34,147 nt of DNA from IMG/VR virus record IMGVR_UViG_3300028571_000063, positions 1 to 34,147 of that record. One strand, written 5' to 3'. The notes beneath the pieces were generated by a model. That model worked only from the letters and a program-made list of their open reading frames with translations. It made no database searches and was not told the DNA's origin. A program made the translations under genes and the position numbers. Origin of the DNA: a virus. Shown piece after piece: positions 1 through 34,147 of this stretch. Position 1 is the stretch's first letter; every line of letters starts with the position of its first letter.

Positions 1-1
1 A

Positions 2-829
2 CCATCAACAGCACATAGGTTCCCAGCTAATCTTATTATTGATGAAACTGCTGCTGAATTATTGGACGAACAAAGTGGTATAGTAAAATCAACAAAATTT
101 CCTGAAACATATGAAGGTGGTTTTGGTGCTGGTGAAAATACTTATGGTGCTGGTAAAGTAAATAATACAAGAGGTTATAATGATACTGGTGGAGCAAGTA
201 GATTTTTCTATATCCCAAAGGTAAGTAAGAAAGAACGAAACTTGGGGTTAGATAATTTTGATGTTGATGGTAGGTTCCCTGCCAATTTTATTATTGATGA
301 AACTGCTGCTGAATTATTGGACGAACAAAGTGGTATAGTAAAATCAACAAAATTTCCTGAAACATATGAAGGTGGTTTTGATGCTGGTGAAAATACTTAT
401 GGTGTTGGTAAAGTAATTAATACTGATGGAGCAAGTAGATTTTTCAATACAAGAGGTTATAATGATACTGGTGGAGCATCAAGATTTTTCTACATTCCAA
501 AGGTTAGTAAGAAAGAACGAAACTTGGGGTTAGATAATTTTGATGATGTTGAAGATAAAGGTAGTAGTGAATTGATAAATACTCGTATAACCAAAAACAA
601 CCACCCCACAGTTAAACCAATCAATCTATTAACATATCTTGTTAGGTTAATAACACCACCAAATGGAATAGTTATGGACTGTTATATGGGTTCGGGTTCA
701 ACAGGGATTGCAGCAAGATTAGAGGGGTTCCAGTTTATAGGAATGGAAATGGACGAGGACTATTATAAAATTGCTGAGACAAGAATAAATAACTATGAGT
801 TATATAAAGATTTAATTAAAAAGAAATAA
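2..829 (+). CDS. DNA methyltransferase, C-terminal part (5' end outside window)
   Basis: The frame is open from base 2 to the TAA at 827-829 with no credible internal start, so the gene begins upstream. The last third carries HPTVKP, then MDCYMGSGSTG (the AdoMet-binding motif I of beta-class amino-methyltransferases), and ends GMEMDEDYYKIAETRI, a standard tail of these enzymes. The DPPY catalytic motif must lie upstream, as expected for the beta order IV-TRD-I. The product should transfer a methyl group to adenine N6 or cytosine N4 in DNA, probably to protect phage DNA from host restriction. The middle part (RFPANF, GASRFFY) is duplicated in tandem. Family identity is secure; target specificity is unknown. 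The present stop follows KKK directly. The copy of its 3' end at 1625-1723 reads four residues further (WKKD), so the stop was probably created by the adjacent insertion. Confidence 0.85.
   Translation, partial: PSTAHRFPANLIIDETAAELLDEQSGIVKSTKFPETYEGGFGAGENTYGAGKVNNTRGYNDTGGASRFFYIPKVSKKERNLGLDNFDVDGRFPANFIIDETAAELLDEQSGIVKSTKFPETYEGGFDAGENTYGVGKVINTDGASRFFNTRGYNDTGGASRFFYIPKVSKKERNLGLDNFDDVEDKGSSELINTRITKNNHPTVKPINLLTYLVRLITPPNGIVMDCYMGSGSTGIAARLEGFQFIGMEMDEDYYKIAETRINNYELYKDLIKKK
17..544 (+). repeat. In-frame tandem duplication inside the methyltransferase
   Basis: Unit 1 spans 17-271 (255 bp, 85 codons). Unit 2 begins at 272 and runs to about 544. The units are nearly identical; unit 2 carries an extra 27 bp (near 421-447) encoding a second GASRFF-like stretch. 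All length changes are multiples of three. The duplicated protein segment runs from RFPAN through GASRFFYIPKVSKKERN to GLDNFD, just before the HPTVKP/motif I region. This is where beta-class enzymes carry their target-recognition region. Confidence 0.9.
743..827 (+). repeat. 85-bp direct repeat, left copy
   Basis: Bases 743-827 are identical to 1625-1709 (offset 882). The left copy is the 3' end of the first methyltransferase; the right copy lies just before the zinc-ribbon gene. The repeats bracket the second methyltransferase. Confidence 0.95.
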
Positions 830-1609
830 ATGTTCAATAAACCACTTCCGCCCCACTATTGCAAAACCCTTGTTAGCGGTAGTGCTTTGATTAATGCGGA
901 TTGTTTCGATATTTTCCCTTACATAAAAGATAAGTCAGTTAATCTTATTTTGGCTGATTTACCTTATGGCACAACTGCTTGTAAATGGGATAGTATTTTG
1001 CCTTTTGATAAACTTTGGGAACAATACGAAAGGATAATTACAGATGATGGTGCAATAGTTTTAACCGCTTCACAACCTTTTACAAGTGCATTAATAATGA
1101 GTAACCCTAAACTATTTAAGTATGAATGGATTTGGGAAAAATCAAAAGCGAGTAACTTTTTACAAACAAGTTATATGCCTTTAAAAGCACACGAAAACAT
1201 AGTTATATTTGGTAAAGGTAAAACTAAATACAACGCCCAAAAAGTACAAGGAAAACCTTTTAATAAAGGGAATAGAAAACACGATAACGGAATAGTTACC
1301 GAAGTTTATAATAAAATACCAAATGCAGGAATTGAAATTGTGAATGAAGATGGTTTAAGAAATCCAAGAACTGTGCAATACTTTACAACTGCTGAAAGCG
1401 AGGGAAAATACCACCCAACACAAAAGCCAAAAAAATTGATGAAATATTTTATTTCCACTTACACAGATGAAAACGATGTTGTATTGGATAATACAATGGG
1501 TTCAGGAACTACTTGTTTAGCATCAAAAGAACTTAATCGTTTTTTTGTCGGAATAGAAAAAGAGAAGCAATATTATGAAATTGCAGTCAGTCGGGTATGC
1601 GGTTCGTAG
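830..1609 (+). CDS. Inserted beta-class DNA methyltransferase
   Basis: A complete 259-residue enzyme. DLPYG at about residues 43-47 is a DPPY-type catalytic motif, HPTQKP lies near 195-200, and NTMGSGTT (about 221-228) is the AdoMet motif I. The order IV-TRD-I is beta class, so it should make N6-methyladenine or N4-methylcytosine. The ATG at 830 touches the preceding stop, but family members usually start close to the sequence LINADCFDIFP, here at residue 20. The first 19 residues may therefore be read from the insertion flank, and a TTG at 887 is an alternative start. It is the only gene in the window that ends in TAG, it looks less AT-rich than its neighbours, and the second copy of this region lacks it. 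It sits between 85-bp direct repeats and imperfect inverted repeats, so recent acquisition as a unit is likely. It might work as a solitary anti-restriction enzyme. Confidence 0.85.
   Translation: MFNKPLPPHYCKTLVSGSALINADCFDIFPYIKDKSVNLILADLPYGTTACKWDSILPFDKLWEQYERIITDDGAIVLTASQPFTSALIMSNPKLFKYEWIWEKSKASNFLQTSYMPLKAHENIVIFGKGKTKYNAQKVQGKPFNKGNRKHDNGIVTEVYNKIPNAGIEIVNEDGLRNPRTVQYFTTAESEGKYHPTQKPKKLMKYFISTYTDENDVVLDNTMGSGTTCLASKELNRFFVGIEKEKQYYEIAVSRVCGS
872..885 (+). repeat. Left inverted repeat of methyltransferase cassette
   Basis: GTTAGCGGTAGTGC here matches the reverse complement of GCATTACCGCTAAC at 1609-1622 in 13 of 14 positions. The two arms frame the conserved body of the second methyltransferase: the left arm lies within its first 19 codons and the right arm begins at its stop codon. 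They resemble the ends of a mobile unit or the paired core sites of a gene cassette, although they do not fit the integron core GTTRRRY. Confidence 0.6.
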
Positions 1610-1622
1610 CATTACCGCTAAC
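1609..1622 (+). repeat. Right inverted repeat of methyltransferase cassette
   Basis: GCATTACCGCTAAC, the partner of 872-885, begins at the last base of the TAG stop. Three bases after it, the second 85-bp direct repeat starts at 1625. Confidence 0.6.
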
Positions 1623-1624
1623 GG

Positions 1625-1723
1625 ATGGAAATGGACGAGGACTATTATAAAATTGCTGAGACAAGAATAAATAACTATGAGTTATATAAAGATTTAATTA
1701 AAAAGAAATGGAAGAAGGATTAA
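1625..1723 (+). pseudogene. Duplicated 3' remnant of first methyltransferase
   Basis: Bases 1625-1709 repeat the 3' end of the first methyltransferase exactly. The frame continues through WKKD to a TAA at 1721-1723, overlapping the start of the next gene (ATG 1708) by 16 bases. This looks like the original end of the first methyltransferase, left behind when the second one entered. It could still be translated as a 32-residue peptide, but I see no reason to expect a function. Confidence 0.7.
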
Positions 1724-2019
1724 AAAACGAAATAATTAGATTAATTAATCTAAAAAAAACAAATAAATATGATGTTCAGAGTATGAGTAATATTATTAGA
1801 GAACATATAGATAAAAAAATGTCTATTTGTTCCCACTGTGCTGCTCAAATTAGATTTGCACAAAAACAATTATTAAATTGGTATAATAGACAAGAAACAA
1901 CAGAAGAAAAAATAACAATATCAGAACCACCACAAAAAGTGGGGTGTCAATCCTGTAAACAGAAAACAACACAAAGTAAAAAAGGTGTTGTGATAAATAC
2001 ACAAAGAACAAAGAAATGA
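1708..2019 (+). CDS. Small zinc-ribbon-like protein upstream of terminase (copy 1)
   Basis: A 103-residue protein. The N-terminal 60 residues are probably helical; CSHC (41-44) and CQSC (80-83) form two CxxC pairs that could bind one zinc ion. The tail is basic (KKGVVINTQRTKK). A close homologue lies at 29647-29958 in the same place before the small terminase, so it belongs to the packaging module. Its stop overlaps the next start (ATGATG), suggesting coupled translation. I do not recognise a named family. A role in packaging or late regulation is a guess from position only. Confidence 0.75.
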   Translation: MEEGLKNEIIRLINLKKTNKYDVQSMSNIIREHIDKKMSICSHCAAQIRFAQKQLLNWYNRQETTEEKITISEPPQKVGCQSCKQKTTQSKKGVVINTQRTKK

Positions 2020-2411
2020 TGGCAAAAAACAAAGGTGGAAGACCCCTAATATGGACTGAAGAAAAAGTTATGAAATTGGGGAATGATTTATTTAACTGGA
2101 TGTTAGAAAGTCAAGACAATATATGGATGGAAACATTTTTATATGAAAATGGTGATATATACCCACAGTTTATTAGTGAAATGTGTATTAAATATCCCAA
2201 GTTTACCGAATTAATAAAAAAGGTAAAAAAAATACAGGAGGGTAAAATAGTAAATGGTGCTTTAAAACACAACCTAAACCCAACGATGTCCATATTTTTA
2301 TTAAAAAATCATCACGGATATAGAGACAAACAAGAACAAGACATCAACCACAAGGGGGAGAATATTGTTATTAATGTTATTAAACCAAATAAAAATAATA
2401 ATGGAGATTAA
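2016..2411 (+). CDS. Terminase small subunit, type A
   Basis: A 131-residue protein immediately before the large terminase and overlapping it by 11 bases. It starts MMAKNKGGRPLIWTEEK, typical of small terminases, and contains NPTMSIFLLKNHHGYRDK, close to a motif common in them. Small terminases recognise the packaging site and pass DNA to the large subunit. Its counterpart at 29958-30371 has a different body, but both share a C-terminal tail (here NIVINVIKPNKNNNGD). Family assignment rests on motif and position. Confidence 0.75.
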   Translation: MMAKNKGGRPLIWTEEKVMKLGNDLFNWMLESQDNIWMETFLYENGDIYPQFISEMCIKYPKFTELIKKVKKIQEGKIVNGALKHNLNPTMSIFLLKNHHGYRDKQEQDINHKGENIVINVIKPNKNNNGD

Positions 2412-3711
2412 TTTTTCCCCATCGTTAAAACAAGATTTAATTTTTGACTATTTTAATGATGAAATAACAACAGAGGTATTATATGGAGGTGCCGCTGCTG
2501 GTGGTAAATCATATGGTATGTGTGCTTTTATGATACTTAAATGTCTAGAATACCCCAAGATAAGAATTGGTTTAGCCAGAAATGAGCTAACCACCTTAAA
2601 AAAAACAACTGTAGTTTCTTTATTTGAGGTAATAAATAACTGGGGGTTAAAGACAGAAGAACATTACAAGTATAATTCAACCACAGGTGAAATTACATTT
2701 ACAAATGGTTCAAAGATAGTTTTATTGGAATTAAGATATTTACCATCAGACCCCAATTATACAAGGTTGGGGGGACAATTATTAACGATGGGTTGTATTG
2801 ATGAGGCTGGTGAGGTAGATGAAAAAGGAAAACAGATATTACAATCACGACTTGGTAGATGGTTAAATGGTGAATTATCAATCAAACCCTTCTTACTAAT
2901 GACTTGTAATCCATCTAAAAACTTCTTGTATAGGGATTATTATATACCAAGTCAAGATAATACATTACCCGAACATAAAAAGTTTATTACAGCTCTTGTT
3001 TTAGACAACCCGTTCATTACAGACGTATATGTTGAGAACCTACAAAAGGCATTATCAAATACAGATAAGGAAAGATTGATAAATGGGAATTGGAATTACG
3101 AAACCTCACCTGATGCATTGATGGATTATGAAACCATATTAAATATCTTCATTAACAAAAAACCTCAAGTTGAAAAAAGTAAAAAATATATCAGCTCCGA
3201 TGTTGCGTTCACAAGTGATAATGCCGTGATTATGGTGTGGGAAGATTTAACTATAGTAGAAATAATAGTTAATCCAGAAGAAAAGATTGAAGACGTAATT
3301 AGGGATAAAGCAAAAGAATATAAAATACCCCCATATAATATTACTTGGGATAGTGATGGGGTTGGTAAATATTTAGAAGGATATTTAAGGGGTGGAAAAC
3401 CAATAGTAAATAATGCAAGAGCACTCGGAGGGGAAAATTACCAAAATCTTAAAACACAATTATACTTCAAATTAAGTGAAGTGATTAACAAAGGTGATTT
3501 AAAAGTGGTGAAAACAAAATATGATGATAAAATTATTGAGGAATTACAAGAAGTAAAACATAAACCAACAGATAAAGTAAGTAAAATACAGATGGTAGAT
3601 AAAGGTGAGGTTAAAAGGATGTTAGGGCGTTCTCCCGATTTTTCAGATGCAATGGCTTATAGAATGATTTTTGAGATTAAGAAAGCACCAGTTAAAACTT
3701 TCCGTATTTAA
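2401..3711 (+). CDS. terL: Terminase large subunit (copy 1)
   Basis: The packaging motor ATPase and nuclease, 436 residues from ATG 2401. I chose this start because MEINFSPSLKQDLIF is matched by MEINFTPSLKQDLIF in the second copy. Walker A is GGAAAGGKS (29-37), Walker B is CIDEAGE (132-138), and the coupling motif is TCNP (168-171). The C-terminal RNase H-like nuclease shows candidate metal-binding aspartates D267 (ISSDVAF), D317/D319 (WDSDG) and D416 (FSDAMAY). All domains appear intact. The start lies inside the end of the small terminase gene in another frame, so translation is probably coupled. The homologue at 30361-31674 is similar along its whole length, by eye about four-fifths identical in protein. 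Confidence 0.95.
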   Translation: MEINFSPSLKQDLIFDYFNDEITTEVLYGGAAAGGKSYGMCAFMILKCLEYPKIRIGLARNELTTLKKTTVVSLFEVINNWGLKTEEHYKYNSTTGEITFTNGSKIVLLELRYLPSDPNYTRLGGQLLTMGCIDEAGEVDEKGKQILQSRLGRWLNGELSIKPFLLMTCNPSKNFLYRDYYIPSQDNTLPEHKKFITALVLDNPFITDVYVENLQKALSNTDKERLINGNWNYETSPDALMDYETILNIFINKKPQVEKSKKYISSDVAFTSDNAVIMVWEDLTIVEIIVNPEEKIEDVIRDKAKEYKIPPYNITWDSDGVGKYLEGYLRGGKPIVNNARALGGENYQNLKTQLYFKLSEVINKGDLKVVKTKYDDKIIEELQEVKHKPTDKVSKIQMVDKGEVKRMLGRSPDFSDAMAYRMIFEIKKAPVKTFRI

Positions 3712-3729
3712 TGTACAAAACACAACAAT

Positions 3730-3746
3730 AAAAAATATATTTATTA
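3730..3746 (+). promoter_or_regulatory. AT-rich leader motif (late promoter candidate)
   Basis: AAAAAATATATTTATTA lies 20 bases before the next start codon. Near-identical strings precede genes at 10710, 17272, 18706 and 31722. TATATTTA resembles the Bacteroidota -7 element, but I see no TTTG at the usual upstream distance. It is followed by AAAAAAAGGATAAT, a probable ribosome-binding region. Confidence 0.45.
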
Positions 3747-3765
3747 AAAACAAAAAAAGGATAAT

Positions 3766-4356
3766 ATGATAAATTTAAAATTAGAAATTGATGATGAGGT
3801 AAAGGAATTTAATTTACCCCAATCGTGGGATGAAGTTACTATTGGTGATTTTGTTAAATTATTCTCTTTTGAAAGAGAGGGGTTAAATTCAGTAGAGTTA
3901 TCTGTAAAAATAATAAATGTATTGACAGATATTGATGAAAATTTAATTATGATGATGGATGTAAAGGATTTTGAAAAATTGGCTGAAGTATTTGCGTTTA
4001 CAAGTAAAGAATTAAAACCCACCAATGTTGAGAGTGTTGAGTTGGAAGGTGAAACATATTATTTAAAAAATGATTTTTCTAAACTAACAATGGGGGAGGT
4101 TATTAGTATTGAGACGATTTTACAATCAGCAGATGGTAATTTATTTAAAGTGATGGATAAGTTACTATGTATATTTTTGAGAAAGAAAAAAGAAAACGGA
4201 AAGTTAGAAGCCTTCAAAGGTGAATTTATGGATAGGGTTAATTTATTTAGAAATGCCCCAATTTCAAAAGTATATAACATATTCAGTTTTTTTTTAACTG
4301 GCGGGACTACATTAGAGGACAATACGAAGGACTATTTGGAAAGCCTGCCAAAATAA
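3766..4356 (+). CDS. Tail assembly chaperone-like protein, short form (copy 1)
   Basis: A 196-residue, acidic, mostly helical protein (N-terminus MINLKLEIDDEVKEFNLP). I call it gpG-like because its 3' end carries a slippery site in register and the -1 frame continues into a 90-codon extension. That is the hallmark of tail assembly chaperone pairs, which coat the tape measure protein during tail building. The homologue at 31722-32312 has the same length and the same site. Its position straight after the large terminase, over 10 kb before the tape measure gene, is unusual for this role, so another frameshifted structural protein remains possible. Confidence 0.6.
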   Translation: MINLKLEIDDEVKEFNLPQSWDEVTIGDFVKLFSFEREGLNSVELSVKIINVLTDIDENLIMMMDVKDFEKLAEVFAFTSKELKPTNVESVELEGETYYLKNDFSKLTMGEVISIETILQSADGNLFKVMDKLLCIFLRKKKENGKLEAFKGEFMDRVNLFRNAPISKVYNIFSFFLTGGTTLEDNTKDYLESLPK

Positions 4357-4568
4357 AAAAAGAGAAAAAAAGTAAATTTGATACTTTAAATAAAAAGACG
4401 GATGTTGATGATAGATTTAAATGGTTGGAGATGGTTTATTTATTATTAACCAAATTAAATACAACTGATGAAATGATATACAAGAAGAACTATATTGGAT
4501 GTTTGAATTGGTTGTCTTATTTCTATCAAAAAAATAAAGTAGAACAAAGTAAAAACGGCAATATATGA
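3766..4568 (+). CDS. Tail chaperone-like long form by -1 frameshift (copy 1)
   Basis: Tandem slippage on T TTT TTA (4290-4296) moves ribosomes into the -1 frame from 4296, giving NWRDYIRGQYEGLFGKPAKI and continuing 90 codons to TGA at 4566-4568. The fusion would be about 267 residues. The extension has no start codon of its own near its beginning, yet codes for a coherent protein (FKWLEMVYLLLTKLN, NYIGCLNWLSYFYQ) that is conserved in the second copy. Its stop overlaps the next start as ATGA, which supports real translation of this frame. It is equivalent in layout to lambda gpGT. Confidence 0.75.
4290..4296 (+). promoter_or_regulatory. Slippery heptamer T TTT TTA for -1 frameshift
   Basis: Nine T bases (4287-4295) followed by A place T TTT TTA exactly in the zero frame (codons TTT 4291-4293, TTA 4294-4296). 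This is a known efficient slippery heptamer (the HIV-1 type). The sequence around it is unchanged in the second copy at 32246-32252. Confidence 0.8.
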
Positions 4569-6469
4569 GTGTAAATATAATTTCATTAAATCAAATGGTG
4601 GATTTGTTCAGTGGGTTCGCTGACAGACATTTTTTTTTAAATGATTTTGGTTTTGGACCAACAAGTGAAATAGGGACCTCAAGACAAATGGACTTCCCCT
4701 ATATGTGGGTATCATTAAATGAAAATAGTTTAATCAACCCCCAAAATAGAACGGCAATACCAGAGTTGTCTTTTTCTGTTTTATTTATGGATAAGACAAA
4801 TATTCAGTCAAATTATTTGGAAATAAATGGAGATAATAGCGACAACATCCAGGAGATATTGAGTGATATGTTACAAGTCCTACAAGATTTTATAACAGAG
4901 GTTCAGGTAGATTGGGGGAATTATGGTATTATATTTCAAGATGTAATTAATTGTTTCCCTGCAACAGATGAAACACAAGATAAAGTTAATGGATGGGTGG
5001 GACAATTTAGTTTTAAATTAAAACATTCAAATTGTATTTTACCAACCGGCGATATTACACAGACAAACTTATCCCCAATTAACCCTATGACGAGGTATTT
5101 GACTTGTGATACAGTAACCGCTTGCACCACATTACAACAATACATAACTCAACAAATATCAAATTTTACAGGAAACACAGGAACAAGTATTACAGGTTTC
5201 ACATATCAAGATAATACCTTCACAATTACTGATGATAATGGTGGGGTATTTAGTGCCACTATTAATACTATGACTGGACTTACTGTAAATGGTGATATAT
5301 CAGGAACAACTTTTTATGGGGATGGTTCAAATCTTACAGGTATTGTATTTAATGATATCTTCGTAACAGGGGGGACATATGATAACTCAACTGGAACAGC
5401 AACATTCACCAATAATAGTGGGGGGACATTTAACGTAAGTGGTTTTTATACTGGTTCAACTGATAATAACCAATTCGTAACGGGATATACCTATTTAAAT
5501 AATACATTCACTATTGCTGATAATAGTGGTAACACATTCAACGCCACCATCAACACGATGACTGGTTTAACCATCAACGGGAACTTGGATGTAACCACAA
5601 TAGATGATGTTGATTATATTGATTTTAATACATCTGCGGCACAAGCAGGGGATATTGGTAGATTGATATGGAATGATACAGATGGAACATTAAATTTAGG
5701 TTTAAAAGGTGGTAATGTGACATTACAAATAGGACAAGAAGAAGTTGTAAGAGTAGTTAATAAAACTGGTTCAAATTTACTTGAAAGTCAATATAAGGTT
5801 GTTAGAATAAGAACACAAGCAGAAGGTGGGGCACAAGGACAAAGGTTAGCAGTTTTATTAGCACAAGCAGATACTAAACACAACCATTCTGGTATATTGG
5901 GTGTTGTTACTGAAAATATTAACAACAATCAAGAAGGTTTTATTACATCATTTGGTAATGTTAATAACATAAATGCAACAGGTTCACTTCAAGGTGAAAC
6001 TTGGTTAGATGGTGATGACTTATGGTTATCAGATACAGTTGCTGGTGGTTTAACCAATATAGAACCAACAACCCACCCAGTAAGAATTGGTTATGTATTG
6101 TATTCACACGCAGTAAATGGTAAAATATTTGTATCGTTAGATAATGGTGTTGATGAATTAGGTGAATTACACGATGTAACAATTACATCACCAATTGGGG
6201 GTGACACATTACAATATAATTCAACATTATCTGTTTGGGAAAACTCAAATCCATTTTGGACAATCGATTTAATGGATAATTCATCGGTTGAATTTTATGC
6301 TGTTGATGATGTTAAAATAAATACAATAACAAATATTGTTGGTTCCCCAACTATAACTATTGCTGATGATGGAGCACCCTATACATTAACAAATACTATT
6401 TTATCTGGAAGTAAAATAACTGTAACATCTGACATACAAAGTGTTATAAAATTAAATATTGAATACTAA
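4565..6469 (+). CDS. Tail fibre / adhesin with repeated beta modules (copy 1)
   Basis: A 634-residue protein. Residues 1 to about 190 form a distinct N-terminal domain, probably the virion anchor (GFGPTSEIGTSRQM; DWGNYGIIFQD). Next come Gly/Thr/Asn-rich repeats of the form TGxTYxxNTFTIxDNxG...INTMTGLTxNG, typical of trimeric beta-structured fibres. A conserved domain from about residue 378 (LGLKGGNVTLQIGQEEVVRV to about 545, IDELGELHDV-like) is of a type seen in many phage fibre proteins. The start overlaps the stop of the frameshifted frame (ATGA). Likely a host-binding or baseplate fibre. A longer variant lies at 32521. Confidence 0.75.
   Translation: MSVNIISLNQMVDLFSGFADRHFFLNDFGFGPTSEIGTSRQMDFPYMWVSLNENSLINPQNRTAIPELSFSVLFMDKTNIQSNYLEINGDNSDNIQEILSDMLQVLQDFITEVQVDWGNYGIIFQDVINCFPATDETQDKVNGWVGQFSFKLKHSNCILPTGDITQTNLSPINPMTRYLTCDTVTACTTLQQYITQQISNFTGNTGTSITGFTYQDNTFTITDDNGGVFSATINTMTGLTVNGDISGTTFYGDGSNLTGIVFNDIFVTGGTYDNSTGTATFTNNSGGTFNVSGFYTGSTDNNQFVTGYTYLNNTFTIADNSGNTFNATINTMTGLTINGNLDVTTIDDVDYIDFNTSAAQAGDIGRLIWNDTDGTLNLGLKGGNVTLQIGQEEVVRVVNKTGSNLLESQYKVVRIRTQAEGGAQGQRLAVLLAQADTKHNHSGILGVVTENINNNQEGFITSFGNVNNINATGSLQGETWLDGDDLWLSDTVAGGLTNIEPTTHPVRIGYVLYSHAVNGKIFVSLDNGVDELGELHDVTITSPIGGDTLQYNSTLSVWENSNPFWTIDLMDNSSVEFYAVDDVKINTITNIVGSPTITIADDGAPYTLTNTILSGSKITVTSDIQSVIKLNIEY
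5748..5870 (+). repeat. 123-bp stretch identical to the right end of the window
   Basis: Bases 5748-5870 equal 34025-34147, the last 123 bases. The first upstream mismatch is 5747 versus 34024. It lies in the conserved fibre domain (KTGSNLLESQYKVVRIRTQA). Confidence 0.95.
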
Positions 6470-7641
6470 TGGAAGAAAGATATATTAAGGCAATAGACCC
6501 AAATAAATGGATAAGACCAGCAGGTTGGTTACAAATGCCAACTATAACATCTGCTGATAATAAAATTGCTATATTACACGCAGTATATAATAATAAAGAA
6601 AATACATTCGCATTAAGTCACGCATTATCAACAACTACTTGGAATATAGATTGGGGTGATGGAACTAATAATAATTACACAACAAACGTTACTCAACAAA
6701 AATCATATGTTTACTCCGCAACGACATCACCAATATTAGTTGATGAATGGGGTGAAAACTATAAACAAGTTTTAATTGTTATAACATATATTTCTGGAGT
6801 TCTAACAAATAATTGGAATTTTAGTCCAACTACGGCTGTTCGTCCAGGAACACCTCAACTTTTAGAAATTGTATTTAGTTGGAACTCGTTATTTCTATCA
6901 AATAGATATATGCCACTACTAAAATCAATTAATATTGTAAAAGGTATTAGTAATGGTAGTGCAATAAATTATTTTTCTTTTTTTCCAGCATTAGATAATT
7001 TAAATTTAGATAATATTGTAACAAATACCAACACTACCTCGCAAACTTTTCTATCAAATTCAGGTAATATTAGTTTAGGTAATTTAAATTGGAATACAAC
7101 AGGTATTATTACATCATTTTTTAGTGGTTCTAATATTAGAAAAATAGGGGATTTAAATTGTCCAACAACAATATCAATGGGTTCAATGTTTTTGAATTGT
7201 TCTAACTTAACAGAAATAGGGGATATAAATTGTCCTTTATCTACTAATTTAAGTGTAGCATTTCAGAATTGTAAAGAACTAATTTCAATTGGTGATATAA
7301 CTTTAAGTCCTGGATTAACAACAATATCCGCGACATTTCAAGGTTGTTATAAACTAAGAAGAATTGTTTTTTTAAGTGATTTAAGTTCATTAACTACTAT
7401 CACTTCTACTTTTACAAATTGTCAATCTTTAGAATATGTTAGATTACCAAATATTATTATATCCATTACAACTTTAACAGATAAAAATCTTGAACGTCCA
7501 GCAATAATAGATTTATTTAATGATTTAGGAACACCTGGAACAACAAGAACAATTGCTTTAACTGGTAATCCAGGAGTTCCTAATTTAACTGCTGCTGATT
7601 TATTAATTGCAACATCAAAAAATTGGACGGTTACCTTATAA
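6469..7641 (+). CDS. Surface protein with PKD-like patch and BspA-type leucine-rich repeats
   Basis: A 390-residue protein whose ATG overlaps the previous stop by one base. About residue 60 reads WNIDWGDGT followed by a short aromatic strand (YVYSA), as in PKD-like beta sandwiches. From about 227 to 330 come repeats such as MFLNCSNLTEIGDIN, AFQNCKELISIGDIT, TFQGCYKLRRIVF and TFTNCQSLEYVRLPN, the pattern of BspA-type (LRR_5) leucine-rich repeats. Such repeats mediate protein or surface binding in Bacteroidota adhesins. Sitting behind the fibre gene, it is probably a receptor-binding tail protein. No copy of this gene lies within the second module, which ends earlier. Confidence 0.7.
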   Translation: MEERYIKAIDPNKWIRPAGWLQMPTITSADNKIAILHAVYNNKENTFALSHALSTTTWNIDWGDGTNNNYTTNVTQQKSYVYSATTSPILVDEWGENYKQVLIVITYISGVLTNNWNFSPTTAVRPGTPQLLEIVFSWNSLFLSNRYMPLLKSINIVKGISNGSAINYFSFFPALDNLNLDNIVTNTNTTSQTFLSNSGNISLGNLNWNTTGIITSFFSGSNIRKIGDLNCPTTISMGSMFLNCSNLTEIGDINCPLSTNLSVAFQNCKELISIGDITLSPGLTTISATFQGCYKLRRIVFLSDLSSLTTITSTFTNCQSLEYVRLPNIIISITTLTDKNLERPAIIDLFNDLGTPGTTRTIALTGNPGVPNLTAADLLIATSKNWTVTL

Positions 7642-28764: not shown

Positions 28765-28798
28765 AAGGGGGACAATTCGCTACTGTTCCCCTTTTTTT
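28765..28798 (+). terminator. Strong terminator after the sigma-like gene
   Basis: AAGGGGGACA pairs with TGTTCCCCTT (10 bp with one G-T pair) around a 9-base loop, followed by five more T bases. Confidence 0.9.
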
Positions 28799-28826
28799 AT
28801 GTCCAAATTAAAACAAGATAGGGTGT

Positions 28827-28840
28827 TTAATATTTAATTA
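28827..28840 (+). promoter_or_regulatory. Leader motif before second packaging unit (promoter candidate)
   Basis: TTAATATTTAATTA lies between the terminator and the gene at 28869. It is nearly identical to the motif at 21095, which also follows a terminator. Confidence 0.4.
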
Positions 28841-28868
28841 TGAATAAAAGGTATTAAACAAAAAATTT

Positions 28869-29048
28869 ATGGATAACTTAGAAAAACTAATAGAAAGAAT
28901 AGAAGATAAGATTTTAGACATTCAATTAAAATTAGGATATTTAGAACTAAAAGTTGAAAAACTTAAAGAACAAAATGAAAATATTACTTATTTTACTGGT
29001 AAAAATCTTTTATTTTTATGTGATATAATAAATAAAATTAAAAAATAA
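28869..29048 (+). CDS. Small coiled-coil protein (59 residues)
   Basis: MDNLEKLIERIEDKILDIQL and LKLGYLELKVEKLKEQNENI give a clear heptad pattern over about residues 2-40. A short hydrophobic patch follows (NLLFLCDIINKI). It ends one base before the next start, so it is co-translated with the lysis candidate. It may be an accessory lysis protein, but the hydrophobic segment is too short and late to call a holin. Confidence 0.6.
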   Translation: MDNLEKLIERIEDKILDIQLKLGYLELKVEKLKEQNENITYFTGKNLLFLCDIINKIKK

Positions 29049-29049
29049 T

Positions 29050-29631
29050 ATGGTTAAAAATTACACAGACAAAGAATTGTTAGGTAAGGTTAAATCCCTA
29101 CCATCATTCAAATCTATACCAAGTGGGTATTGGATATTGGGGGTTCGTTCATTAGAAGACATCCCAAATAAGTTTGACGACAAGTTCTACCTATTCAAAG
29201 GGGAAGAATTTGTAATGGTATTACAAGGAACAACAAATCCAGGAACACCCATATTAGAAAAAGGATATCTGAAATACAATAATGTTGGTGCAGCAGTTGT
29301 TAAATCTAACGAATGGTATTATGATGTATGGAAATATGGGTTACATCAAGGTAAAATGCCAGCATTACTTCAACTTGGTAATTCAATCAAAGTGTATAGA
29401 GATGGGGATAATGATAAAAAGAGTGAAGAAATAGGTAAGTTTATTGAGGGGTATTATGGTATTAACTTTCATTCAAATAATTATGACTTATCAACCAAAT
29501 TAAAAAAAGAAGATATAAACGGGTGGAGTGCTGGTTGCCAGGTAAGTAATGATATTCCAAAGTATGCAACCCTAATACAATTAGTTAAATCACAATCAAC
29601 AGTATCATACTGTCTAATAAAAGAATTTTAA
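29050..29631 (+). CDS. L,D-transpeptidase-fold protein, lysis candidate
   Basis: A 193-residue protein. YGINFHS (His141) and NGWSAGCQVS (Ser160, Cys163) reproduce the His...S-x-G-C layout of YkuD-type catalytic domains, with Ala in place of the His of SHGC. In cells YkuD enzymes cross-link or trim peptidoglycan peptides with the Cys nucleophile. In phages, related proteins with SAGCQ may cleave the wall. No signal peptide is seen, consistent with holin-dependent release. It lies directly before the packaging genes of copy 2, a place occupied in copy 1 by methyltransferases. The upstream half (SGYWILGVRSLEDIPNKFDD, FVMVLQGTTNPGTPIL) fits the start of the same fold. Confidence 0.65.
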   Translation: MVKNYTDKELLGKVKSLPSFKSIPSGYWILGVRSLEDIPNKFDDKFYLFKGEEFVMVLQGTTNPGTPILEKGYLKYNNVGAAVVKSNEWYYDVWKYGLHQGKMPALLQLGNSIKVYRDGDNDKKSEEIGKFIEGYYGINFHSNNYDLSTKLKKEDINGWSAGCQVSNDIPKYATLIQLVKSQSTVSYCLIKEF

Positions 29632-29646
29632 TATTAAAAAAATAAT

Positions 29647-29958
29647 ATGGAAGAAGGATTAAAAAATGAAGTGATTAGGTTAATCAATCTAAAAAAAACC
29701 AATAAATATGATGTTCAAAGTATGACTAACATAATCAGAGAACATATAGATAAAAGAATGTCCATTTGTTCTCATTGTGCAGCACAGATAAGATTTGCAC
29801 AAAAACAATTATTAAATTGGTATAACTCACAACAACCCACAGAAGAAATAAAACTACCAGAACCACCACCAGTAAAAGTTGGATGTCAGAGTTGTAAACA
29901 GAAGACAACACAACCTAAAAAAGGTGTGGTGATAAATACCCCCAAATCTAAAAAATAA
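29647..29958 (+). CDS. Small zinc-ribbon-like protein upstream of terminase (copy 2)
   Basis: The 103-residue homologue of the protein at 1708-2019, nearly identical through the first 60 residues. Both CxxC pairs (CSHC, CQSC) and the KKGVVINT tail are preserved, while the linker between them varies (here Pro-rich, KLPEPPPVKVG). Conservation of the cysteines in two diverged copies supports metal binding. Its last base overlaps the start of the small terminase (TAATG). Confidence 0.75.
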   Translation: MEEGLKNEVIRLINLKKTNKYDVQSMTNIIREHIDKRMSICSHCAAQIRFAQKQLLNWYNSQQPTEEIKLPEPPPVKVGCQSCKQKTTQPKKGVVINTPKSKK

Positions 29959-30371
29959 TGATTTACAAAACAAATTTTCAAAAAAAGAAACTCGTTGTTG
30001 ATGAGGCATTCCGTAATGGGTTTAATTGGACAAGAGCATATATGACTATAATGGGGGTTGAAAAACCTGATATGGCTAAAAGAGCAGTTTACAAGATGAA
30101 ACAATCTAAAGAGGTTGAAGATTATATCACCTTCAAAGAAAGTGAAATACAATTAAAATATGATATTGATAAGGATAAGATTATTCGTGAGTTGGTGGAT
30201 TTAATTGATGATTGTAAGACTGAAACTTCAACTGATAGACAAAATTTGATTAAAGGGTTGGATATGTTAAATAAAATGTTTGGTTATTATACACCTGAAA
30301 AACACGAACATAAACACGAGGGTATTACAATCAATATTATTAAACCAAATAAAGATACAGATGGAAATTAA
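29958..30371 (+). CDS. Terminase small subunit, type B
   Basis: A 137-residue protein. The N-terminal half (KKKLVVDEAFRNGFNWTRAY, then GVEKPDMAKRAVYKMKQ) is a helix-turn-helix of the Terminase_2 kind, and KYDIDKDKIIRELVDLIDDC supplies the oligomerisation helix. It bears little resemblance to the small subunit at 2016-2411 except for the C-terminal tail GITINIIKPNKDTDGN. It overlaps the large subunit start by 11 bases, as in copy 1. It should recognise a different packaging site from copy 1. Confidence 0.8.
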   Translation: MIYKTNFQKKKLVVDEAFRNGFNWTRAYMTIMGVEKPDMAKRAVYKMKQSKEVEDYITFKESEIQLKYDIDKDKIIRELVDLIDDCKTETSTDRQNLIKGLDMLNKMFGYYTPEKHEHKHEGITINIIKPNKDTDGN

Positions 30372-31674
30372 CTTTACCCCATCATTAAAACAAGATTTAA
30401 TATTTGAATATTTTGATGATGAAAAAACAACTGAAGTATTATATGGTGGGGCTGCTGCTGGTGGTAAATCGTATGGAGCAAGTGCTCTTGCTGTAATAAA
30501 ATGTCTACAATATTCAAATATTCGTGTAGGTTTAGCAAGAAATGAACTAACAACATTGAAAAAAACAACTGTTGTATCCCTATTTGAGGTAATAAATAAT
30601 TGGGGATTGAAGGTTGATGAACATTATAAGTATAACTCCACAAGTGGTGAAATAACATTTACAAATGGTTCAAAGATAGTTTTATTAGAATTAAGATATT
30701 TACCATCAGACCCCAATTATACAAGATTGGGCGGACAATTATTGACTTTTGGTATAATTGATGAGGCAGGTGAGGTAGATGAAAAAGGAAAACAGATATT
30801 CCAATCACGTCTTGGTAGATGGTTAAATGGTGAATTATTAATCAAACCCTTCTTACTGATGACTTGTAATCCATCTAAAAACTTCTTGTATAGGGACTTT
30901 TATATTCCAAGTCAAGACAATACACTACCCGAACATAAAAAGTTTATCACAGCACTTGTATTAGACAACCCATTCATTACAGATGTATATGTTTATAACC
31001 TACATAAGACATTATCCAATTCAGATAAGGAAAGATTGATAAATGGTAATTGGGATTATGATGACGACCCAAATACTCTTATGGATTATGAAACGATATT
31101 AAGAATATTCACAGATAAAAAACCTGATGTTGAAAAACCCACTTATTATATTAGTGCGGATATTGCATTCACAAGTGATAATGCAGTGATTATGGTGTGG
31201 GAAAATCTAACATTAGTAGACATTATAGTAAATCCAGAAGGGAAAATAGAAGATGTAATTAAAGATAAGGCAAAAGAATATAAAGTATTCCCCAATAATA
31301 TCAGTTATGATAGTGATGGTGTGGGGAAATATTTAATGAATTATCTAAAATCAGCAAAACCTATTGTAAATAATGCGAAACCATTAAAGGATGAAAACTA
31401 CGAAAACCTAAAAACACAATTATATTTTAAACTTGCTGAGGTAATTAACAAGGGGGAATTAAAAGTATTAAATACAAAATATCAAGATAAAATTATTGAA
31501 GAACTACAACAGGTTAAACACCGTCCAACAGACAGAGTAGGTAAAATAGCTATGGTTCAAAAAGGTGATGTAAAACGAATGTTAGGACGTTCCCCAGACT
31601 TTAGTGACGCAATGGCATATAGGATGGTATTTGAAATTAAAGTTGGTGTAACCAAGACATTTCGTATAATGTAA
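30361..31674 (+). CDS. terL: Terminase large subunit (copy 2)
   Basis: 437 residues from ATG 30361 (MEINFTPSLKQDLIFEYF). Walker A GGAAAGGKSYG, Walker B IIDEAGEVDE, TCNP, and nuclease residues ISADIAF, YDSDGVG and FSDAMAYRM are all intact. It aligns with copy 1 over its whole length with scattered substitutions and many synonymous changes, so it is a diverged homologue under purifying selection rather than a recent duplicate or an assembly copy. Confidence 0.95.
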   Translation: MEINFTPSLKQDLIFEYFDDEKTTEVLYGGAAAGGKSYGASALAVIKCLQYSNIRVGLARNELTTLKKTTVVSLFEVINNWGLKVDEHYKYNSTSGEITFTNGSKIVLLELRYLPSDPNYTRLGGQLLTFGIIDEAGEVDEKGKQIFQSRLGRWLNGELLIKPFLLMTCNPSKNFLYRDFYIPSQDNTLPEHKKFITALVLDNPFITDVYVYNLHKTLSNSDKERLINGNWDYDDDPNTLMDYETILRIFTDKKPDVEKPTYYISADIAFTSDNAVIMVWENLTLVDIIVNPEGKIEDVIKDKAKEYKVFPNNISYDSDGVGKYLMNYLKSAKPIVNNAKPLKDENYENLKTQLYFKLAEVINKGELKVLNTKYQDKIIEELQQVKHRPTDRVGKIAMVQKGDVKRMLGRSPDFSDAMAYRMVFEIKVGVTKTFRIM

Positions 31675-31691
31675 TTTAAAAACATAAAGAT

Positions 31692-31708
31692 AAAAAATAT
31701 ATTTATTA
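31692..31708 (+). promoter_or_regulatory. AT-rich leader motif (copy 2)
   Basis: AAAAAATATATTTATTA is the same 17-base string as at 3730, although the surrounding intergenic bases have changed between the copies. It is followed by AAAAAAAAAAGGAT and the start codon. Confidence 0.5.
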
Positions 31709-31721
31709 AAAAAAAAAGGAT

Positions 31722-32312
31722 ATGATAAAAATAAATTTAGAAATTGACGATGAGGTAAAAGAATATTCTTTACCCGAAAGTTGGGATGAACTTACCATTG
31801 GTGATTTTGTTAAGTTATTTTCATTTAATAGGGATGGTTTAACAAGAGTAGAATTATATGTAAAGATAATAAATATCTTAACAGATATTGATGAGGAATT
31901 GGTTATGATGATGAATGTTGAAGATTTTGAAAAATTGATGGAAGTATTTAAATTTACAACAAAAGAATTAGAGGCGATTAATGTTGAAAGTATTGAATTA
32001 GAAGGTGAGGTATATTATTTAAAAAGTGACTTTTCCCAACTTACGATGGGGGAAGTAATTAGTATTGAAACAATATTACAATCAGCGGATGGTAATTTAT
32101 TCAAAGTAATGGATAAGTTATTGTGTATATTTTTAAGAAAGAAAAAAGAAAATGGAAATTTAGAAGCATTCAAAGGTGAATTTATGAATAGGGTTAGTAT
32201 ATTTCAAAAAGCCCCAATCACAAAAGTTTATAACTTATTCAGTTTTTTTTTAACTGGCGGGACTACATTAGAGGACAATACGAAGGACTATTTGGAAAAC
32301 CCGCCAAAATAA
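31722..32312 (+). CDS. Tail assembly chaperone-like protein, short form (copy 2)
   Basis: A 196-residue protein of the same length as copy 1, with substitutions spread through it (for example EYSLPESWDELTIGDFVKLF). The 3' end, where two frames overlap, is almost unchanged. Role as in copy 1: the gpG-like product of a frameshift pair. Confidence 0.6.
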   Translation: MIKINLEIDDEVKEYSLPESWDELTIGDFVKLFSFNRDGLTRVELYVKIINILTDIDEELVMMMNVEDFEKLMEVFKFTTKELEAINVESIELEGEVYYLKSDFSQLTMGEVISIETILQSADGNLFKVMDKLLCIFLRKKKENGNLEAFKGEFMNRVSIFQKAPITKVYNLFSFFLTGGTTLEDNTKDYLENPPK

Positions 32313-32524
32313 AAAAAGAAAAGAAAAGTAAATTTGATACTTTAAATAAAAAGACAGAAGTAGATGATAGATTTAAATGGTTAGAAATGGTTTATACATT
32401 ACTAACAAAATTAAATACAACTGATGAAAAAATATATGAGAAGAATTATATTGGATGTTTAAATTGGATGTCCTATTTCTATCAAAAAAATAAAGTAGAA
32501 CAAAGTAAAAACGGTAGTTTATGA
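31722..32524 (+). CDS. Tail chaperone-like long form by -1 frameshift (copy 2)
   Basis: The same T TTT TTA site (32246-32252) leads into NWRDYIRGQYEGLFGKPAKI in the -1 frame and on to TGA at 32522-32524, again 90 codons and about 267 residues in total. The extension differs from copy 1 by amino-acid substitutions only, without indels or stops. That shows the frame is translated. The stop overlaps the fibre start as ATGA. Confidence 0.75.
32246..32252 (+). promoter_or_regulatory. Slippery heptamer T TTT TTA (copy 2)
   Basis: Nine T bases (32243-32251) then A, in the same register as copy 1. Confidence 0.8.
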
Positions 32525-34147
32525 GTAGTGTAAATATAATTAGTTTAAATCAAGTAGTTGACTTATTTGAGAATTTCTCAGAAAGACATTACTTCTTAAA
32601 CGATTTTGGTTTTGGACCAACAAGTGAAATAGGGACTTCAAGACAAATGAATTTCCCCTATATGTGGGTTTCATTAAATGAAAATAGTGTAATCAATCCA
32701 CAAAATAGAACCGCAATACCTGAATTGTCTTTTTCTGTGTTATTTATGGATAAGACAAATATTCAATCAAATTATCTAAATATCAATGGTAATAATAGTG
32801 ACAATGTCCAAGAGATATTGAGTGATATGTTACAAGTCCTACAAGATTTTATTACAGAGGTTCAGGTAGATTGGGGTAATTATGGTATTATATTTCAAGA
32901 TACTATTAGTTGTTTCCCCGCAACAGATGAAACACAAGATAAAGTTAATGGATGGGTGGGACAATTTAGTTTCAAATTAAAACATTCAAATTGTATTCTA
33001 CCAACGGGTGATATTGCACAGACAAACTTATCCCCAATTAACCCTATGACGAGATATTTAACTTGTGATACGGTAACTGCTTGTACAACGTTACAACAAT
33101 ATATTGCACAACAAGTATCAGGTAACACAGGAACACTTATAACAGGTTTTACATATCAAGATAATACATTTACAATATCTGATGATAATGGTGGGGTATT
33201 TAGTGCTACTATTAATACTATGACTGGACTTACAGTTAATGGTGATATATCAGGAACTACATTCTATGGGGATGGTTCAAATCTTACTGGTATCATATCA
33301 ACAGATACTTATGTTACAGGTGGAACATATAATAATTCAACAGGTACTGCAACATTTACAAATAATAGTGGTGGTACGTTTAATGTTACTAATTTCTTTA
33401 CTGGGTATACCTTTATAGATGAAAACACGACAACACCTTATTTTGATATTATAATCCCAAGTGGATTTGAAACCTCATCATTTAATATAACCCCAAGTAA
33501 TATTACAATAGAAAATAATGACGCAGCAACATTAGAAAATTCCCAAATATATTTAGATAATGGAACAATACAATTTATATGTGATGATGGTATTAACACT
33601 AATACAATTGAAATAAACCCATTTGGTATTATTGGGGTTCCTTATGTTGTAAGTGGGGTATATAATAATTCAACAGGAACTGCGACATTAACAACAGCAA
33701 CAGGAACACAAATACCTATAACAGGATTTACAACTGGTTCAACGAATACTTTTGTCACAGGATTTACAAATAATAACAACGTGTTCACTATTTCGGATAA
33801 TGGTGGACAATCTTATTCAACAACATTAAATACTTTAACTGGATTAACAATAAATGGTAATTTAGATGTAACCACAATTGATGAGGTTGATACAATAGAT
33901 TTTAATTTAACCGCAACAACAACAGATGCCATAGGACGACTTAAATGGAATGATACAGATGGTACATTAGATTTAGGTTTAAAAGGTGGTGATGTGACAT
34001 TACAAATAGGACAAGAAGAAGTTATAAGAGTAGTTAATAAAACTGGTTCAAATTTACTTGAAAGTCAATATAAGGTTGTTAGAATAAGAACACAAGCAGA
34101 AGGTGGGGCACAAGGACAAAGGTTAGCAGTTTTATTAGCACAAGCAG
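32521..34147 (+). CDS. Tail fibre / adhesin (copy 2, 3' end outside window)
   Basis: Open to the window edge (542 codons seen). The N-terminal 190 residues match copy 1 closely (GFGPTSEIGTSRQM, DWGNYGIIFQD). The repeat region is longer: after the GTATFTNNSGGTFNV segment an extra stretch of about 90 residues (33390-33660; FETSSFNITPSNITIENNDA, NGTIQFICDDGINTNTIEIN) has no counterpart in copy 1. The frame then rejoins the conserved GLKGGDVTLQIGQEEVIRVV domain. This is a fibre variant made by gain or loss of repeat modules between conserved ends. Confidence 0.8.
   Translation, partial: MSSVNIISLNQVVDLFENFSERHYFLNDFGFGPTSEIGTSRQMNFPYMWVSLNENSVINPQNRTAIPELSFSVLFMDKTNIQSNYLNINGNNSDNVQEILSDMLQVLQDFITEVQVDWGNYGIIFQDTISCFPATDETQDKVNGWVGQFSFKLKHSNCILPTGDIAQTNLSPINPMTRYLTCDTVTACTTLQQYIAQQVSGNTGTLITGFTYQDNTFTISDDNGGVFSATINTMTGLTVNGDISGTTFYGDGSNLTGIISTDTYVTGGTYNNSTGTATFTNNSGGTFNVTNFFTGYTFIDENTTTPYFDIIIPSGFETSSFNITPSNITIENNDAATLENSQIYLDNGTIQFICDDGINTNTIEINPFGIIGVPYVVSGVYNNSTGTATLTTATGTQIPITGFTTGSTNTFVTGFTNNNNVFTISDNGGQSYSTTLNTLTGLTINGNLDVTTIDEVDTIDFNLTATTTDAIGRLKWNDTDGTLDLGLKGGDVTLQIGQEEVIRVVNKTGSNLLESQYKVVRIRTQAEGGAQGQRLAVLLAQA
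34025..34147 (+). repeat. 123-bp right-end stretch identical to 5748-5870
   Basis: The last 123 bases of the window are identical to part of the first fibre gene, whereas sequence just to the left has scattered differences. Confidence 0.95.

Follow-up and report, generated by a model that had tools for sequence, protein, structure and literature searches.

The window analysed here, an IMG/VR virus record of 34,147 bases, carries a gene in two overlapping frames that starts 54 bp past the end (position 3711) of the large terminase gene. Its zero frame runs into a stretch of nine T (T9), in which two potential slippery heptamers overlap, and from there the -1 frame stays open beyond the zero-frame stop, until its own stop overlaps the start of the next gene. 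The same layout recurs towards the other end of the window (31722-32524), and we refer to the two occurrences as copies A and B (Table 1).

Table 1. Coordinates of the two-frame gene and its features in the window
Feature	Copy	Position	Strand	Details
Zero-frame gene	A	3766..4356	+	196 aa; likely chaperone-like, 'G'-type product
Slippery run	A	4287..4296	+	T TTT TTT (4287-4293) overlapping T TTT TTA (4290-4296), both in zero-frame register; T9 at 4287-4295
-1 frame extension	A	4293..4568	+	Putative 'T'-type domain, 90-91 codons plus stop (4566-4568)
Stop/start overlap	A	4565..4568	+	ATGA, shared with the next gene (4565-6469)
Predicted hairpin	A	4299..4350	+	TGGCGGG (4299-4305) / CCTGCCA (4344-4350), 5 nt after T TTT TTT
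Zero-frame gene	B	31722..32312	+	196 aa; 81% identity to copy A
Slippery run	B	32243..32252	+	T9 (32243-32251), then A
-1 frame extension	B	32249..32524	+	92% identity to copy A; stop at 32522-32524, ATGA at 32521-32524
Predicted hairpin	B	32255..32306	+	TGGCGGG / CCCGCCA

The initial annotation had proposed a programmed -1 frameshift at this gene, with a -1 frame of about 90 codons in both copies that ends in an ATGA overlap, and had described the copies as nearly identical between the start of the T run and the zero-frame stop. The coordinates bear out the former and a comparison of the copies the latter: the copies show 92 differences in 521 nucleotides upstream of the T run and 22 in 209 past the zero-frame stop, but only 2 in the 70 in between (Fisher P = 4e-4 versus upstream and 0.05 versus downstream). 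Furthermore, among the 114 in-register XXXYYYZ heptamers in the 30 genes of the window, a -1 extension that reaches at least 10 codons past the zero-frame stop or is at least 50 codons long was found only at this gene, in both copies. The next gene also contains a T9 run (4630-4639), in which T TTT TTA is in register. No long -1 extension follows this second run and copy B has no such run, making it a natural negative control. The last residues of the zero-frame product (179-196), which AlphaFold models with a pLDDT below 50, are likely disordered.

The two copies themselves, both of which are present as described, are probably strain variants rather than paralogues. All 12 relative contigs of 27-31 kb have one copy each, and the two copies in the window are spaced by about 27.95 kb. 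One separate contig of 5.1 kb (L006) matches window 28982-34126 exactly, and three others (L001-L003) show 98-99.9% identity to the left arm of the window; one of these, L002, extends left past window position 1, and the first 82 bases of that stretch resemble window 28790-28874. On the simplest reading, the window represents a circularly permuted genome of about 28 kb, with the assembly running on into a second strain, and its arms 1-6470 and 29638-34147 are probably two strain variants joined in one wrapped contig. Given the single-copy relatives, the copy spacing and the contig overlaps, copies A and B would therefore be better seen as alleles. The left arm also contains identical 85-bp direct repeats (743-827 and 1625-1709) on either side of a methyltransferase gene, and beside them an internal repeat (16-269 / 271-551); these repeats may reflect duplication or recombination.

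Scans of viral contigs yielded 264 overlapping loci, including the two window copies; two short partial matches without the gene (L008, L009), two loci that duplicate those of the window (L016, L017), and the loci of named phages were left out before this count. Both frames are present in 258 of these loci, the remaining 6 being cut by contig ends, and single-linkage clustering at 90% nucleotide identity groups the 258 into 56 clusters. In 56/56 clusters, the extension lies in the -1 frame. The initial annotation had named homologues with stops in the -1 frame as evidence against its proposal; the proposal passes this check, with the extension in another frame in 0/56 clusters, and no cluster has both parts joined in a single frame. 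One locus, L081, has an internal deletion in the extension and belongs to a cluster with T TTT TTT. These counts bear on the most trivial explanation, a single broken gene or a homopolymer sequencing error. Although the break falls in a T run, a kind of sequence prone to indels, all 258 two-frame loci are split at the homologous place, with a uniform -1 offset across the clusters, and the isolate phages P12024S and P12024L, described below, share the arrangement; we consider the chance of such an artefact negligible.

The slippery site is similarly widespread. A canonical heptamer is found in 54 of the 56 clusters: T TTT TTT in register in 53, and A AAT TTT, with only five T, in one (L044). 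The two clusters with neither (L043, L046) likewise have five T, in TCA TAT TTT TCA or CAC ATT-type neighbourhoods. Behind T TTT TTT, a second heptamer of the type T TTT TTA/G/C follows in 33 of the 53 clusters. Thus, T TTT TTA, on which the initial annotation had placed the slip, does exist in the window, where it overlaps T TTT TTT, but only T TTT TTT is common to most of the family. Likewise, the slippery site is correctly described as being in exact register, but this is weak evidence by itself, since any T9 run contains an in-register T TTT TTT, and the register is informative only for shorter runs. In a smaller, earlier set of 49 representatives, 38 have T9, 6 have T10, 4 have T8 and 1 has T7; in all five representatives with runs of 7-8 T, T TTT TTT is in register.

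Runs of this length also suggest a different route to the same product, in which RNA polymerase slips on T9-T10, and mRNAs with one extra U or two fewer yield the fusion by normal translation. The predominance of T9 and T10 (38 and 6 of the 49 representatives) is consistent with such slippage, whereas the five representatives with only 7-8 T, all with T TTT TTT in register, argue against it, as do L043, L044 and L046 with their T5, one of which (L044) has another canonical ribosomal heptamer instead. Further evidence on both sides comes from the sequence downstream.

There, a hairpin is predicted in part of the family. In the clade of the window, it consists of a 7-bp stem (TGGCGGG/CCYGCCA) with a 38-nt loop, 5 nt from T TTT TTT and 2 nt from T TTT TTA, and the hairpins of the two window copies have shuffling z values of -4.0 and -4.7. 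In a second group, the stem found at this spacing is compact (TGGAAGAG/CTCTTCCA). Stems of at least 7 bp that start from a TGG behind the slip site occur in 16 of 45 representatives and are absent in the other 29; from this count, 4 of the 49 representatives were dropped as having no TGG, and in L050, L052, L070 and L077 the matched TGG lies at a different offset (8). These stems begin 5 nt after T TTT TTT in 15 of the 16 cases, with L052 beginning elsewhere. The mean TGG stem is 5.24, compared with 3.97 in shuffled sequences (combined P = 1.4e-5, from representatives that are not independent), and the thermodynamic z is below -2 in 13 of 49 representatives. In consensus folds of the two hairpin types, covariation is slight, with two-sided changes at one pair in one group and at none in the other; the case for the hairpin therefore rests on its position and on the stem statistics. 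Stimulators of frameshifting are usually located some 5-9 nt downstream of the heptamer, and by this rule the observed spacing would favour T TTT TTT as the main site in the window clade. Hairpin strength does not differ between members with a single and with a double heptamer (P = 0.23).

The distribution of the hairpin offers polymerase slippage some further footing, as the T10 representatives have none (mean z 0.32) and hairpin strength weakly tracks run length (Spearman 0.35, P = 0.013, uncorrected for relatedness). Yet a downstream hairpin would still be untranscribed at the moment the polymerase slips. On balance, we regard polymerase slippage as an unlikely explanation for the family. 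The same low likelihood applies to a mixed scenario, in which lineages with U7-9 would use the hairpin and ribosomal slipping, those with U10 and no hairpin would use polymerase slippage, and both would keep the fusion, with a tail chaperone working from behind the terminase. A frameshift of ribosomal nature is, by contrast, well supported by the sequence comparisons.

For the analysis of selection, we used 14 disjoint pairs of cluster representatives, which we prefer over an earlier analysis of 135 overlapping pairs. The zero-frame synonymous difference decreases from 0.571 before the slip site to 0.193 in the overlap, and this drop, which the initial annotation had named as a check on the frameshift, is seen in 14/14 pairs (Wilcoxon P = 1.2e-4). 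Within the overlap, the zero frame has a pN/pS of 0.99, compared with 0.28 for the -1 frame; in the part of the extension beyond the zero-frame stop, the ratio is 0.13. The zero-frame tail also varies widely in length among homologues. These pN/pS values indicate that the overlap is held mainly by the -1 frame, and perhaps also by RNA structure, while the zero-frame tail is nearly neutral, so that the earlier view of two constrained frames applies to the -1 frame but not to the zero frame.

The constraint on the -1 frame also speaks to the possibility that the extension is a separate small protein, made from an internal start or by re-initiation at the zero-frame stop. This is how it is annotated in P12024S (gp39, 55 aa), and an ATG or TTG does occur about 93-120 nt after the slip site in some representatives. 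However, 28 of 49 representatives have no ATG, GTG or TTG in the -1 frame between the upstream stop and 40 codons past the slip site, and the same is true for the extension in the window. Moreover, conservation is already high at the first residues of the extension, and the overlap is constrained in this frame, making a separate protein very improbable. Conversely, the -1 extensions in 56/56 clusters and the synonymous drop in 14/14 pairs support the originally proposed programmed -1 frameshift, and we consider the joining of the two frames by such a frameshift as very well supported.

What the gene encodes is suggested by several distant similarities. The family alignments of the zero frame (A4) and the extension (A5) exclude 3 of 53 representatives (L081, L070, L029). 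The commonest Pfam match is PF10109 (Phage_TAC_7), with 12/50 members and a best E-value of 3e-4, where the individually inspected matches score 12.3-14.8 bits and thus lie under the Pfam cut-off of 25; phrog_166 (PHROG 166), a 'tail protein', matches 8/50 members. The AlphaFold model of the zero-frame product (pLDDT 83.5) matches 42 predicted viral proteins in BFVD at E <= 0.001; its matches to Mu FS-gp41 and to several entries that carry the name tail assembly chaperone are weak. The zero-frame and extension models have two BFVD matches in common, of 243-260 aa, and some distant relatives may, judging from these models, carry both parts in one frame. For the extension model, all BFVD matches are above E 0.01. 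Fold searches of the PDB gave no significant match for the zero-frame model, with two weak rows on a second look, and a second look with the extension model gave one candidate but no match. An hhalign comparison of the family profile with Mu gp41 was not significant, a tblastn search of 50,697 phage records found no close relative of the P0001, P0002 and L080/L126 proteins or of the downstream gene, and no relative was confirmed in genome contigs.

The genomic position is less typical. Tail assembly chaperone genes usually lie immediately ahead of the tape-measure gene and behind that of the major tail protein, as is the case in P2 and Mu. In the window, about 10 kb separate the end of the extension (4568) from the start of the tape-measure gene (14617), which places the gene outside this usual position. 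A tape-measure gene was found in 11 of 12 relative contigs; it lies 8.3-13.5 kb downstream in 6 that can be read directly, and at a similar distance in the other 5 only if the contigs are wrapped. The nearest named terminases, at 32-40% identity among the phages listed at >=80% coverage, belong to Flavobacterium, Cellulophaga, Bacteroides and Polaribacter phages, so that a Bacteroidota host is likely.

Given this position, the gene could be a frameshift gene with another role, for instance as a terminase or head-completion partner. It is preceded directly by the large terminase gene wherever BLAST detects one, and the downstream g634 gene follows in 53/53 clusters. Nevertheless, TAC_7 and 'tail protein' lead the family matches, and the tape-measure gene is part of the same gene block; we find another role improbable and a tail assembly chaperone-like product, as suggested by these sequence matches, likely. 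As for the neighbouring gene at 4565-6469, its N-terminal part is present behind the frameshift gene in 53/53 clusters. It has no clear family match, and its product may be a tail component.

Among cultured phages, one of the BFVD matches of the zero-frame model, I6R9M9 of Nonlabens phage P12024S (175 aa, E = 9e-9), was identified by its protein length as gp38. The gp38 gene is located directly behind the terminase and contains a T9 run, with T TTT TTT in register; it is followed by an 81-aa -1 extension, which the record annotates only partly, as gp39. Of the 115 ORFs of P12024S, gp38 scores best against the zero-frame profile A4 (36.2, the next being 22.7), and the extension ranks fourth against the extension profile A5; the A4 model, when searched against the P12024S record, yielded nothing at E 1. 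The link to gp38 rests on the BFVD fold match, the frame layout and the 115-ORF ranking. P12024L carries the same proteins at 98.8-99.4% identity. Like the gene in the window, those of P12024S and P12024L are terminase-adjacent, with T9, an in-register T TTT TTT and a -1 extension; unlike it, they show no strong downstream hairpin, their sequences are very distant, and their products are annotated as separate hypothetical proteins.

In its own right, gp38/gp39 of P12024S (L134, 23136-23830) looks like an unannotated -1 frameshift gene. Similarly, Flavobacterium phage 11b (L018, 17854-18528) has an A AAA AAA at the end of its gp38 gene and a 115-aa -1 extension over gp39, directly before gp40, a possible unannotated chaperone-type frameshift judging from its sequence. 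A gene of Flavobacterium phage 6H (10352-10927, BFVD rank 30) was considered as a relative and rejected, as it has no clean -1 extension.

Among known systems, the closest parallels are lambda G/GT and P2 E/E+E'. In lambda, as described in a review (PMC5009743), one gene gives a short product and a -1 extended one through a slippery heptamer, with the second domain in the -1 frame, as we propose here; the role of the short product is to coat the tape-measure protein, and that of the T domain to bind the tail protein. The two differ in that the slip site here is a U run and the gene lies behind the terminase, and they are likened by architecture. In P2, E+E' is annotated as a -1 frameshift; besides the -1 extension, the zero-frame family shares with it the weak match to TAC_7, a Pfam family naming E, 41 or 14. 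In contrast to the present gene, which is 8-14 kb away from the tape-measure gene, E+E' directly precedes the tape-measure gene T, with an 8-nt overlap in the record. We conclude that the gene probably works like G/GT, as a diverged member of that class. Within this class, different phages use shifts of -1, -2 or +1, and in E. coli constructs A AAA AAG was far more shift-prone than U UUU UUU or U UUU UUA (PMC5009743). Accordingly, the slip rate of the present gene may be low, or its hosts may differ from E. coli. Predictions with PRFect place such genes widely across phage genomes, where they are often unannotated (PMC10885494). In the literature open without subscription, we found no description of such a frameshift gene for such phages. 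The mechanism is already known; the phage group, the site and the gene position are new.

The sequences themselves show the reading frames and their conservation, the slippery site, the constraint on the -1 frame and, for part of the family, a predicted hairpin; from these comparisons we infer ribosomal slipping, its rate and the chaperone role. The reading we hold to be quite probable is that of a chaperone-like gene of the lambda G/GT or P2 E/E+E' type, with a -1 ribosomal slip on a U run whose rate sets the product ratio for tail assembly. On this model, the majority of ribosomes would produce the 196-aa protein, while a minority would slip back by one base on U UUU UUU, and possibly also on U UUU UUA, to yield a longer fusion bearing the 90-residue helical domain; in the window clade, the hairpin 5 nt downstream would aid the slipping. 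By analogy, the short form would coat the tape-measure protein, the long form would recruit the major tail protein, and the slip rate would set the ratio of the two that is needed for tail assembly.

If so, the phages known to use a frameshift in a tail chaperone gene would be joined by a large uncultured group, with probable hosts in the Bacteroidota, and the gene order in this group suggests that such a gene need not precede the tape-measure gene. Furthermore, the family offers naturally occurring differences in run length, hairpin and heptamer with which the determinants of the slip rate could be tested.
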